Shown piece by piece: positions 19,335-53,831 of a DNA stretch of 64,000 nt (position 1 is its first letter; each line of letters starts with the position of its first letter). Source of the stretch: Lachnospiraceae bacterium (GTDB lineage: Bacteria > Bacillota > Clostridia > Lachnospirales > Lachnospiraceae); assembly GCA_021770755.1 (NCBI GenBank), contig JAETQI010000003.1, forward strand, positions 62,001 through 126,000, written 5' to 3'. Under the pieces are notes generated by a model. That model saw only the letters and a list, made by a program, of their open reading frames with translations, did not search any database and had not been told where the DNA came from. The position numbers and the translations under genes are program-made.

Positions 19335-19659
19335 AAGTTGATCGCGAGATGAACTTTTCCTGGAATAGAAATGAACTATATTGATGAAAATGCCATGAAG
19401 GAGACTCTTGCCAATGAAAACGACAGGAAGACGGCGTCACCGACTGAGAGCGCTGTCCGCGGAAGCTGGCGAAGGGAACACTCCGGAGCAGATGATCTGA
19501 AACGGCGTTCTGTTTGCAGACACCTTATTAGGATCATACGTGGACGCGCGTTAAGCGTGAGAGAGGACAAAGCTTTTTGGGTTTTGTCAATGCGGGTGGT
19601 ACCGCGGGTATATTTCAGATTATCCGTCCCGGAATACATTTTGTATTCCGGGATTTTTT
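19335..19659 (+). ncRNA. T-box leader upstream of aspS, including terminator
   Basis: T-box sequence 'GCGGGTGGTACCGCGG' (19592-19607), upstream 'GAAGGGAACACTCCGGAGC'-type element, terminator CCCGGAATACATTTTGTATTCCGGGATTTTTT (19628-19659). Confidence 0.92.
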
Positions 19660-19661
19660 CA

Positions 19662-19749
19662 TGCACACGGGCGTCCAGAGGAAAATGTCAGCATGAGCTG
19701 ACGGACGCCCGGCGCACGAGCAGGGGAAGATGGTTCTTCCCTGCTTGAT
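19662..19749 (+). repeat. Structured repeat copy R1 (88 bp)
   Basis: Outer stem CGGGCGTCC/GGACGCCCG, inner stem GTCAGC/GCTGAC, one-sided loop AGAGGAAAAT; second hairpin AGCAGGGGAAGA-tggt-TCTTCCCTGCT. Confidence 0.85.
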
Positions 19750-19837
19750 TGCACAGACCCGTGCAGAGGAAATATGCCGCTAAGGCGGCGCACGGGTCGC
19801 ACGCGAGCAGTGGAAGATAGTTCTTCCCCTGCTCGAT
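19750..19837 (+). repeat. Structured repeat copy R2 (88 bp)
   Basis: Outer stem GACCCGTGC/GCACGGGTC, inner stem GCCGC/GCGGC, one-sided loop AGAGGAAATAT; second hairpin CGAGCAGTGGAAGA-tagt-TCTTCCCCTGCTCG. Confidence 0.85.
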
Positions 19838-19929
19838 TGCACACGGGCGTGCAGAGGAAAATGTCAGCATGCGCTGACGGGCGCACGGGTCGCACGCGAG
19901 CAGTGGAAGATGGTTCTTCCCTGCTCGAT
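19838..19929 (+). repeat. Structured repeat copy R3 (~92 bp, apparently chimeric between R1-like and R2-like arms)
   Basis: Left arm CGGGCGTGC, loop AGAGGAAAAT, inner stem GTCAGC/GCTGAC, right arm GGGCGCACGGGTC, second hairpin as in R2. Confidence 0.8.
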
Positions 19930-19952
19930 TCATCAAAAAAGGAGGATTTGAG

Positions 19953-49531: not shown

Positions 49532-51331
49532 TCATGATTCTGCCTTGTCTGCGAGAAAATCATACTGTGACATGAACAGCTTATAGTATTCGCCCTTTTG
49601 TGCGAGCAGTTCATCGTGCGTGCCCGCTTCGAGGATATTTCCCTTGTCGACATACATGATGCAGTCCGCATTCTTGATGGTTGAGAGCCTGTGGGCGATG
49701 ATGAAGGAGGTGCGTCCCTCCAGCAGCCTGTTCAGACCCTTCTGCAGCAGGATCTCTGTCTCGGTGTCGATGCTCGATGTCGCCTCGTCCAGAATGAGAA
49801 TCGCCGGGTTTTCGAGCAGCGCCCGCGCGAAGCTGATGAGCTGTCTCTGACCGGCGGAGAGGCGGCTTCCGCGCTCATTGACCTGTGTCTGGTAGCCGTT
49901 CTCCATCTCCATGATAAAGTCGTGCGCGCAGACGGTCTTGGCGGCGGTGATGACCTCCTCGTCCGTTGCGGTCAGATTTCCATAACGAATGTTATCCATA
50001 ATGGTTCCCGAGAAGATAAAGCTGTCCTGCATCATGATACCCATCTGCTTTCGCAGGGATTTGAGAGTCACGCCGGAGATGTCCGTGCCGTCGATCAGGA
50101 TCCTGCCCGAGTCCACATTGTAGAAACGGCTGATGAGGTTGACGATGGTCGATTTGCCGGCGCCGGTGGGTCCTACGATCGCGTATGTGTCGCCCGGGTT
50201 TGCGGTGAAATTTACCTTATTTAAGATCCGGACACCGTCCTCGTAGCTAAAGCATACGTCCTGGAATTCCACTTTTCCGTCGATTGCAGGCATCGGCACA
50301 GCATCCTCGGCGTCCCTGACATTGACAGGCTCGTCGATCGTCTCAAAGATGCGCTCTAAGTAGGCGATCGCGGTGAGCAGCGAGTTGTAGAACGAGGCGA
50401 GCGTGTTGATCGGTTCCCAGAATCTTGAGATGTAGGAGGTAAACGCGATCAGGATACCGACTGTCACACCGTAGATCTCCCCCGAGATCCAGCCGATGCC
50501 GATCACGTAGATGAACGCTGTCGTGACGGTCGAGATCGAGTCGATGCAGGGCCACATGATAAAGTTGTATTTGACGGCACGCATCCACGCACTCCGGTAG
50601 CTGTCGCTTAAGTGGTTGAAGATCGAAGTGTTCTCGCGCTCGCGCACGAAGGACTGTGTGACGCGGATACCGTTGATGCTCTCCGCGATGTAGGCGGTGA
50701 GGTTGGACTGCTTGTTGCTCTGGATCTGCCACGCGCGCCGCTGGCGTCTCTTCACGAACACGATGACGGCAAAGAGCACAGGCAGTCCGCACAGGCAGAT
50801 CAGCGTGAGCCGGACATGCAGCAGGAGCATAAAGATCAGGATAAAAATTAAATTACACATGTCCGTTATCGTGTTGATGATGCCGTTAGACAGCAGGTCG
50901 CTCAAGCTGTTCACATAGTTGACCACGCGCACCTGGATCTTGCCGTGGGGGCGGTCGTCATAGTAAGAGAACGGCAGCTCCTGCAGGTGGCAGAAGATGT
51001 CGGAGCGCAGTTGGTGCACGATCGCCTGCCCGATACGGCTGGTGATGCGGATCTTGAGTCGGATGCACACGCAGGTGTACAGTACGATAACGAGTGATAT
51101 TAAAGTGATGGCCACGATCGCCCGGATATCCTTTGCAGGGATATAGGTGTCCATGATCTCACTGATGAACAGGGGGAAGAGCATGGTCAGCGCGGATGCG
51201 GACAGCATCAAAAAGAGCGCGAAGGCAAGCTGTCCCCGATAGGGCTTTACATACTGGAAGACACGTTTGAGCTGTCCAAAGTCAAATTTGTCCTCGATCA
51301 CTTCGTCGATATCATATTTATTTCGTGCCAT
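49532..51331 (-). CDS. ABC exporter, ATP-binding/permease half (heterodimer subunit)
   Basis: Walker A 'VGPTGAGKSTIV', signature 'LSAGQRQLISFARALL', Walker B 'ILILDEATSSIDTETE'; start at MARNKYDI. Confidence 0.93.
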   Translation of the reverse strand: MARNKYDIDEVIEDKFDFGQLKRVFQYVKPYRGQLAFALFLMLSASALTMLFPLFISEIMDTYIPAKDIRAIVAITLISLVIVLYTCVCIRLKIRITSRIGQAIVHQLRSDIFCHLQELPFSYYDDRPHGKIQVRVVNYVNSLSDLLSNGIINTITDMCNLIFILIFMLLLHVRLTLICLCGLPVLFAVIVFVKRRQRRAWQIQSNKQSNLTAYIAESINGIRVTQSFVRERENTSIFNHLSDSYRSAWMRAVKYNFIMWPCIDSISTVTTAFIYVIGIGWISGEIYGVTVGILIAFTSYISRFWEPINTLASFYNSLLTAIAYLERIFETIDEPVNVRDAEDAVPMPAIDGKVEFQDVCFSYEDGVRILNKVNFTANPGDTYAIVGPTGAGKSTIVNLISRFYNVDSGRILIDGTDISGVTLKSLRKQMGIMMQDSFIFSGTIMDNIRYGNLTATDEEVITAAKTVCAHDFIMEMENGYQTQVNERGSRLSAGQRQLISFARALLENPAILILDEATSSIDTETEILLQKGLNRLLEGRTSFIIAHRLSTIKNADCIMYVDKGNILEAGTHDELLAQKGEYYKLFMSQYDFLADKAES

Positions 51332-53099
51332 ACTGTCCACCTCCTTTGTTGTTCTGGTTGATCTCGTCAACGTATTTCTCGAACTCGCCGTATTGATGGC
51401 GGAACACGGTAGCATAATAACCGTTATTTTTGAGCAGCTCATCGTGCGTTCCCTGCTCCACGATCTTTCCGTCATTCAGCACCAGGATCAGGTCGGAGTC
51501 CTTGATGGATGAGATGCGGTAGGCAACGATAAAGATTGTGCAGGCATGGTCGATGTTGTTTAGCTGCTGCTGGATATAACTCTCGGTCTCCATGTCGACG
51601 GCGGAAGTCGTGTCGTCGAGTATTAATATAGAAGGTTCTTTTAAGAGCGCCCTCGCCAGTGAGATGCGCTGCTTCTGACCGCCGGAGAGTCCGACGCCGC
51701 GCTCCCCGACGATCGTGTCGTAGCCGTCGGGCATCTCGCGGATAAAGCTGTCGGCGTCCGCCATGACAGCAGCCTTCTGGACAGCTTCGAAGGGACAGTC
51801 GGGCTTGCTGTAGGCGATGTTGCCCTCGACTGTGTCGGAGAAGAGAAAGACGTCCTGCATCGCCATGCCGATGTTCTGGCGGAGGTTGTAGAGGTCTAAG
51901 TCCTTCACGTTCCTTCCGTCCACCAGCACTTCCCCGTCAGTGACATCGTAGAACCGGCAGAGCAGGTTCATGATGGTCGATTTGCCGGAGCCAGTCGAGC
52001 CAAGGATACCGACTGTCTGACCGCTCTTTACCTGAAAGCTGACGTTGTGGATGATATCCTCGTCGTCGGCGCTGTAGGAGACATTTTTGAACTCCACATC
52101 ACCCCGGAGCTTCCTGCACGGGATCGGTTTTGCCGGATGCTTGACTTTTGGCTCCTCGCTGTAGGTGGCATAGATCTTCTCCACGGAGGTCGTGAAGCGC
52201 TGGATGTCGTTGATACGCCAGCCGATCTGGCGCAGCGGGTTCATGAGCATCCACAGATAACCGTTGATCGTGACATAATTTCCGAGCGTCATGCTGCCCT
52301 GGATCACCATGATGCTGCCGACAAGCATCAGGATCACTGTGAGCATGTTTGAGAGAAATTCAAATTTGGGTACGTACTTTGTCCAGATCTCTGCGGCGGC
52401 AAGCTCCGCATCGCGGTAGCCGTCATTTTCCTTATTAAATTTTCCGATCTCGTAGTCTTCCTTGGAGAACGCCTTGACCACGCGGTTTCCGCTGACATTC
52501 TCCTGCACGAAGGTGTTGAGGGAGGAGAACTGCTCCCGGATCCGCTGGAAGCGCGGGCGCCCCTCCTTCGTCTGGCTCAGCGTCACGAGCAGCGCAAATG
52601 GCAGCACGGCACACATGCAGAGCGCAAGCTTCCAACTGACAGTGAAGATCATGACCAGCGCGAAGAAGAACAGGAAGACATTTTCATACACCTGATAGAT
52701 AACAAATGCTATGAAATGCCGTATGGCGTCCATGTCGCCGGTCTGGCGGCTCAGCAGGTCGCCGGTGCGCTTCTTGTTGTAGAAGTTGAAGTCCTCCTGC
52801 AGAAGCTTGCGATAGACGGTGTCGCGCATGGCGTAGAGCACATCCTGCGAGCAGGTCTCAAAGATGACCTGGGACCAGTAGCGAAGCGTTCCGCGCAGGA
52901 TCGTGATGAGGACGAGCAATGCGATCAGCTTCGGCAGCAGGCCATAATTTCCGGCGGTGATCACATCGTCGACGATGGCGCCGGAGACGATCGGCTTTAC
53001 GATGGCAAGGATCGAGATCACTGTCACGATCACAATGCCGAGCGCCATGCTCCGATTGTGCTTTTTGAGAAAAGAGTAGAACCATTTCATGGCAGTCAT
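51318..53099 (-). CDS. ABC exporter, ATP-binding/permease half (heterodimer subunit)
   Basis: Walker A 'LGSTGSGKSTIM', signature 'LSGGQKQRISLARALL', 'ILILDDTTSAVDMETE'; 14-nt overlap with the next gene. Confidence 0.93.
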   Translation of the reverse strand: MTAMKWFYSFLKKHNRSMALGIVIVTVISILAIVKPIVSGAIVDDVITAGNYGLLPKLIALLVLITILRGTLRYWSQVIFETCSQDVLYAMRDTVYRKLLQEDFNFYNKKRTGDLLSRQTGDMDAIRHFIAFVIYQVYENVFLFFFALVMIFTVSWKLALCMCAVLPFALLVTLSQTKEGRPRFQRIREQFSSLNTFVQENVSGNRVVKAFSKEDYEIGKFNKENDGYRDAELAAAEIWTKYVPKFEFLSNMLTVILMLVGSIMVIQGSMTLGNYVTINGYLWMLMNPLRQIGWRINDIQRFTTSVEKIYATYSEEPKVKHPAKPIPCRKLRGDVEFKNVSYSADDEDIIHNVSFQVKSGQTVGILGSTGSGKSTIMNLLCRFYDVTDGEVLVDGRNVKDLDLYNLRQNIGMAMQDVFLFSDTVEGNIAYSKPDCPFEAVQKAAVMADADSFIREMPDGYDTIVGERGVGLSGGQKQRISLARALLKEPSILILDDTTSAVDMETESYIQQQLNNIDHACTIFIVAYRISSIKDSDLILVLNDGKIVEQGTHDELLKNNGYYATVFRHQYGEFEKYVDEINQNNKGGGQYGTK

Positions 53100-53129
53100 A
53101 GTTGTGCACCTCACTTTTCTTTCGTTTTT

Positions 53130-53200
53130 TGCACTCGGGCACCCAAAGGAGATATGTCAGCGAGGCTGACGGGTGTCCGGCGCATGAGCCTACTCGATTC
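53130..53200 (+). repeat. Structured repeat copy R4 (dispersed member of the 19.7-kb family)
   Basis: Outer stem CGGGCACCC/GGGTGTCCG (one G-U), loop AAAGGAGATAT, inner stem GTCAGC-gag-GCTGAC, trailing CGGCGCATGAGC ... CTCGATTC. Confidence 0.85.
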
Positions 53201-53501
53201 GAACACATATTTGAAAATTGAGCAGTGTGTTCGAGCGGTTACGTCTTAGTATAGCGGAAAAAATATAAAATGCAAGCTTAAAAGTGTTACGTTTTAATGC
53301 ATTAATTGTCGTTTTCTCTTCGCTGTCCCATCCTGCCTGCCGTACAGAAAAATGAAAAAAGTTTAGAGCAAAAGTGCATAAAGATCAAAAAAATGGTCAC
53401 AATAAACTGTGAAAATAGCACAACGAAAATCGGGAGTGTATACAGACAGGAAAGCGGCGCTTTCAAAATCGACGAAATGCAGCAGAAGGCGACAAAAAAA
53501 C

Positions 53502-53530
53502 TTTACTTGAGGCATATTGTATACTATAAT
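53502..53530 (+). promoter_or_regulatory. Sigma-A-like promoter upstream of the HPr-like gene
   Basis: TTTACT - 17 nt - TATAAT. Confidence 0.6.
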
Positions 53531-53606
53531 ACGTGAAACAGTGATTGGGAGGAGCTGTATAGGAGAACGGCAGACTCTTTGTTTGTGTAGAAAGGAAGTT
53601 GTTATT

Positions 53607-53831
53607 ATGAGAGAACGTAAAATTAAGATGACACCTGCAGATGTACAGAATTTTGTGAACGAAGCATCGAAATGTGATTTTGATATCGACATTTCCTACA
53701 ACCATTACACAGTGGACGCCAAATCGATCATCGGCGTGATGGGATTGGATTTCCGGTCAATACTGACGCTGCAGTACACTGGATACAACGATGAGTTTGA
53801 GAGTTACGTGAGCGGGCTTGCGATCGCGTAA
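53607..53831 (+). CDS. HPr-like protein lacking His15 and Ser46
   Basis: 'PADVQNFVNEASKCDFDIDISYNHYTVDAKSIIGVMGLDFRSILTLQYTGYNDEFE' aligns to the HPr fold. Confidence 0.8.
   Translation: MRERKIKMTPADVQNFVNEASKCDFDIDISYNHYTVDAKSIIGVMGLDFRSILTLQYTGYNDEFESYVSGLAIA

Follow-up and report, generated by a model that had tools for sequence, protein, structure and literature searches.

The structured repeat at positions 53,129 to 53,199 (plus strand) of the window, which is the whole 64,000-nucleotide stretch of Lachnospiraceae DNA analysed here, belongs to a family that is a real, widespread and apparently recently active mobile element. The insertion address of the family is a T-run, usually that of an intrinsic terminator, and the unit lies directly 3' of it. 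In our view the family is probably a non-autonomous mobile element, about 91 bp long, that homes to terminators and inserts in the manner of IS200/IS605, with the 53.1-kb copy as an old, internally deleted example. That the copies follow terminator T-runs, that tandem units are ordered by age and that the family spans the Lachnospiraceae goes beyond a preliminary description of the repeat. No description of a terminator-associated repeat of this kind was found in open-licence papers, and an earlier description is possible.

Results

Family size and structure of the unit

The preliminary description had proposed that copies be counted in the complete genome. A covariance model (R1) built from 36 units gave 123 units at E<0.001 in the genome that holds the window (G000), distributed over 101 loci (83 single, 14 double and 4 triple), and 30 of the 35 other genomes of this Lachnospiraceae genus also have matches, as does one genome of another family. 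The window holds four of the 123 units, three at 19,661–19,930 and one at 53,129–53,199. The latter had been described as a fourth copy of the 19.7-kb repeat; it is indeed of the same family as these three units, but the count was wrong, since it is one of about 120. Its score with the model is 60 bits (E 7e-9), the copy itself being among the 36 building sequences and the shortest of them. BLASTN with the 53.1-kb copy gave 45 genomic matches (lowest E 1e-15, leaving out the query itself), and BLASTN with one of the 19.7-kb units gave 53. A coincidence of short stems, named in the preliminary description as what would speak against a repeat, is excluded by BLASTN and the model search; nothing was found in favour of such a chance resemblance and its probability is negligible.

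The unit of about 91 bp consists of a two-tier hairpin with a conserved purine loop, followed by a second hairpin ending in CTCGATT, and typically starts with (AT)GCACACGGGCGTCC-AGAGGAAAATG. In hairpin 1, nine pairs make up the outer stem and five or six the inner one, with a purine-rich bulge of about 11 nt on the 5' side; this hairpin is followed by GCGC, hairpin 2 (GCGAGTAGGGGAAG...CTTCCCTACTCG) and ATT. Three stem classes (A, B and C) occur in the genome. Within this genome, standard pairs are found in 96% of the pair cells, double-changed cells number 78 against 16.5 in shuffles, and the pairing collapses when the partners are slid. Between genera the stems are completely different in sequence, yet pairing in hairpin 1 is retained in 93% of cells, and 72 cells are double-changed, compared with 24.5 in shuffles. 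Roughly constant are the TGCRCA head, the loop of purines and the terminal CTCGATT. These compensating changes bear out the earlier view of a dispersed structured repeat with stems that differ yet pair. Rfam, searched in both gathering and E-value modes, gave no significant match to the repeat.

Insertion site

Among the 99 loci with upstream sequence, 86 are T-rich (four or more T among the last six bases ahead of the junction), and in 64 the junction is preceded by exactly TTTAT. A hairpin adjoins the T-run at 66 of the 86 T-rich sites, compared with 26% of 749 other T-runs in the same loci; about 20 of the 86 fail the hairpin test. In genomes G236 and G517, a strong hairpin (fold below -8 kcal/mol) stands at the T-run in 18 of 19 records, which represent 17 distinct sites, two pairs of records being the same site. 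Terminator targeting by the family is well supported.

Target-site duplications and empty sites in sister strains had both been suggested as checks. In none of 36 complete single units do the bases before the junction recur downstream over more than 2 nt, so that no target duplication is seen. An empty site is present in the sister G003 at the position of G000:C13:4075, with TTTTTTAT intact.

Ends, truncation and order of insertion

The ends of the element are fixed, the 5' end usually being GCRCA adjoining ...TTAT and the 3' end ...CTCGATT. Four distinct sites in G236 carry identical 91-nt units in unrelated flanks, nine sites in G517 carry very similar units, and the units from both genomes all finish at CTCGATT or a one-base variant; these copies were chosen as full-length model matches, which fix the ends and give no truncation frequency. 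Since identical copies stand in unrelated flanks, and this in another genus, both ends are taken as fixed and recent movement is indicated. The mobility of the family is well supported.

Nearly all copies in G000 have an intact 5' end, and 55 of 99 loci stop inside a unit. Orthologous sites at C110:7510 have five different contents in five species. Judged from orthologous sequences, deletion after insertion produces at least some of the truncations. Two truncated G236 copies are nearly unmutated (no more than one mismatch in 32 and 38 nt), and truncation at the moment of insertion is therefore kept as an option.

The arrays are graded. In 36 of 41 informative pairs of neighbours, the distal one, farther from the T-run, has diverged more than the one closer to it (p=3.6e-6), and the same holds for 12 of 14 pairs (p=0.013) if only complete units are considered. 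Because the distal units are the more diverged, new units most likely enter next to the T-run, and the order of units in an array is a relative record of insertions. Insertion of whole arrays in one event is disfavoured by the age gradient.

The copy at 53.1 kb and the ABC exporter leader

By the covariance model and its orthologue at locus L166, the copy at 53,129–53,199 is a class B unit with an internally deleted hairpin 2 and the 3' end CTCGATT. The T-run TTTTTT lies directly before it (53,125–53,130, plus strand, read from the sequence), and the hairpin test found no terminator hairpin before this T-run. Hairpin 1 (53,136–53,179, plus strand) is supported by folds and by the family covariation, and comprises the outer stem (53,136–53,144/53,171–53,179) of nine pairs with one G-U, the purine-rich bulge (53,145–53,155) and the inner stem (53,156–53,161/53,165–53,170), the loop/bulge sequence being AAAGGAGATAT. 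The two-tier hairpin reported earlier, including the G-U pair, is thus correct in sequence and position. Both strands of the copy fold below shuffles (z -2.0 and -2.9).

Hairpin 2 is represented by a remnant, GAG...CTC, at 53,186–53,195 (plus strand). Locus L166, which is attributed to the sister species G017 through contig L160 of the same isolate, matching G017 locus L079, has the orthologous insertion with a complete hairpin 2, and in the alignment the 53.1-kb copy is about 17 nt shorter. Since G017 shares the insertion with a full hairpin 2, the insertion at 53.1 kb is evidently old and the reduction of hairpin 2 evidently a later 17-nt deletion. The suggestion that hairpin 1 is the sole conserved core does not agree with this orthologue, nor with the presence of hairpin 2 and CTCGATT in young full-length copies. 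A Shine-Dalgarno sequence and start codon held in the loop, also suggested earlier, find no support in the family, where class B has TTG in place of the ATG, other genera lack this ATG, and the reading frame is not conserved.

The ABC exporter gene (ABC_membrane and ABC_tran; identified as an ORF and by Pfam) occupies 51,318–53,114 on the minus strand, and its start may be the ATG at 53,099. The repeat stands reversed in its leader, so that the opposite orientation claimed for the ABC transcript is confirmed, and the T-run is antisense to the leader of this operon. A motif search gave a promoter-like TTGCAT-16-TATACT (53,248–53,275, minus strand) upstream of the repeat, on the far side from the gene, and because of this position the repeat probably lies inside the ABC 5' UTR in reverse orientation. 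The copy would have landed in the antisense T-run of the operon leader, and is now probably a passive hairpin in the 5' UTR. A small plus-strand ORF with an HPr-like domain (PF00381) is found at 53,517–53,828 of the window, beside a helicase gene.

The array in the aspS leader

The aspS gene is preceded by a T-box leader (19,386–19,634, plus strand; RF00230, 81 bits, E 6e-18), which a default Rfam scan misses since 81 bits is below the gathering score of 93. The terminator hairpin and T-run of this leader (19,628–19,659, plus strand), read from the sequence and kept in relatives, are the insertion address of the array. T-box and terminator T-run are followed on the plus strand by an A-C-A array of unit 1 (class A, 19,661–19,750, 108 bits), unit 2 (class C, 19,749–19,838, 82 bits) and unit 3 (class A with a changed stem, 19,837–19,930, 75 bits). 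The elements also alter mRNA leaders, one of them T-box-controlled. In relatives, the aspS T-run is followed by a C-C-C array, by isolated members that have diverged, by short remnants or by no family member, and this varied occupancy among species suggests that units inserted there repeatedly and independently. The aspS terminator of the sisters G017 and G014 (L258, L259) carries a tandem repeat unrelated to the family (AAAACAGCATTAGCCCGGACGATGC..., with a unit of roughly 150 nt). In G236, a truncated copy (L438, near 10,955 of the reverse strand) comes after a probable T-box terminator and upstream of apparent tryptophan biosynthesis genes.

Distribution

A broader model (R2) has matches in at least 70 of 396 Lachnospiraceae genomes and at least 60 of 333 genera; these are lower bounds, with 11 candidates scored per genome, and family f1 is taken as Lachnospiraceae from the names of the carriers. 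Most of the carriers that have names are uncultured Lachnospiraceae; the others are Lachnospiraceae bacterium A4 and IMSAGC_011. A search of the INPHARED phages and PLSDB plasmids gave no match to the repeat. The elements are common in gut Lachnospiraceae, yet they are without an Rfam family and without a phage or plasmid record in these databases. In two IMG/VR phage contigs (L334:666-693 and L335:8075-8102), a T-run is followed by a class C unit, with the small terminase gene immediately downstream. A diverged model match at L443:18243-18334, with a long AT-rich second hairpin and without a T-run, closely precedes a gene and could represent a cellular RNA akin to the mobile family.

Search for the moving enzyme

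Y1_Tnp was not found in the copy-rich genus genomes G034, G012, G014, G006 and G030 (about 20 to 50 copies each). Y1 loci are without the ends of the repeat, and the presence of Y1 does not track copy number among the genomes, which are partly incomplete. A Y1 transposase was rejected as the resident mobiliser, as G000 has only IS200-like copies, unlinked to the repeat in the genus; the multicopy Y1/IS200 elements of G022 have ends and targets unrelated to it. No composite end-gene-end element was seen among 85 truncated-hairpin matches or at the two truncated G236 copies, and no RAYT gene flanked by family repeats was found. There was no reverse-transcriptase motif in the examined DNA, which covers only part of any genome, and neither the window nor the repeats gave a group II intron match. 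TnpB-like genes were also rejected as a partner, the only one close to a clear repeat copy (G000:C14) being judged coincidental. Most genus genomes, including some without Y1_Tnp, have one to a few copies of such genes, encoding proteins of about 450 aa with only PF07282 matches (L366:208-1563, L367:2297-3658), and both TnpB-like genes of this genome are near a similar gene of about 456 aa. The mobiliser may have disappeared, may be encoded in sequence that is missing here, or may be an enzyme of another class.

Discussion

IS200/IS605 elements use a T-rich pentanucleotide target, TTTAT included, and make no target duplication and have no terminal inverted repeats (PMC4227781). The family conforms to these rules: its ends are fixed, the T-rich left target is retained, no duplication is made, and each end has a hairpin nearby. 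Movement would then be single-stranded transposition in trans of the IS200/IS605 type, with the hairpins as the ends that the enzyme recognises and TTAT/TTTAT as the left target that stays in place. Points that weigh against this reading are that no transposase could be linked to the family, that Y1_Tnp was not found in several copy-rich genomes, that no composite element turned up, that about 20 of the 86 T-rich sites fail the hairpin test, and that many copies are 3'-truncated, two of them nearly unmutated. Repeated insertion at one T-run builds direct tandem arrays; the unit nearest the T-run is the youngest, and the older units farther away decay. Homing to the T-run just past a terminator hairpin should spare genes, and such insertion would be nearly harmless, making a load of more than 100 copies tolerable. 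A broader formulation, which we put forward only tentatively, is that of a Lachnospiraceae-wide two-hairpin class that uses terminators (hairpin and T-run) as its insertion address and builds age-ordered arrays, with an enzyme outside the known Y1/RAYT groups and possibly RNA-based retrotransposition.

In a retroelement-like (SINE-like) origin, the RNA of the unit would be copied into DNA, primed by the T-run at its 3' end; the enzyme might be that of a group IIC intron, which recognises DNA stem-loops. Such an origin would explain the fixed 5' end and the variable 3' end in 55 of 99 loci as aborted copies, and is in line with the two nearly unmutated truncated G236 copies, the hairpin preference at the insertion sites and the recognition by group IIC introns of a DNA stem-loop adjoining the insertion site (PMC10190682). 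Many young copies, however, stop exactly at CTCGATT and some truncations are later deletions according to the orthologues, which weakens variable 3' ends as proof of target-primed reverse transcription; with no reverse-transcriptase motif in the DNA examined from partial genomes and no group II intron match in the window, we regard this origin as unlikely. It is rather improbable that the family is a REP-like element spread by RAYT (a domesticated Y1), with a TGCRCA head replacing GTAG. Short extragenic high-copy hairpins with compensating changes and a conserved head before the palindrome fit such an element, but the head is not GTAG, the arrays are direct and not inverted (comparison in PMC2817692), no RAYT is flanked by repeats, and Y1 genes do not track the copies.

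A regulatory RNA of the host, or an element that stabilises mRNA, maintained behind terminators by selection and spread by ordinary recombination, could account for a structure preserved across genera by compensating changes and for the diverged L443 match, upstream of a gene and without a T-run. Identical copies at unrelated genes, presence that varies among species at one locus, copies in phage contigs and frequent decay speak against it, and we consider it very improbable.

Comparison with known systems

Like IS200/IS605 elements and their non-autonomous derivatives, the palindrome-ended MITEs, the repeat inserts on the 3' side of a T-rich motif, for which TTTAT is among the reported targets (PMC4227781), without target duplication, lacks terminal inverted repeats and has a hairpin near each end. 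Unlike IS200/IS605, it has no linked tnpA/tnpB, prefers terminator hairpins, forms age-ordered direct tandem arrays and has a two-tier left hairpin with an 11-nt 5' bulge. With REP/RAYT systems it shares short, extragenic, high-copy hairpins with compensating changes, whereas it has no GTAG head, direct arrays, a longer unit with two hairpins and no RAYT gene that could be found. Eubacterium rectale is a member of the Lachnospiraceae. The studied example of a group IIC intron is from this species, and such introns attack a site beside a DNA stem-loop (PMC10190682), which resembles the 66 of 86 T-rich sites of the repeat that abut a hairpin. The repeat differs from them in its length of 91 nt, its lack of an intron core, an encoded protein or an Rfam match, and its misfitting ends. 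Compared with integron attC cassette arrays, it is without a cassette gene, no integrase is shown, and it has many dispersed targets and another junction sequence, but both are structured elements whose arrays grow at one fixed end. In integron cassette arrays, too, the newest unit comes first at that end.
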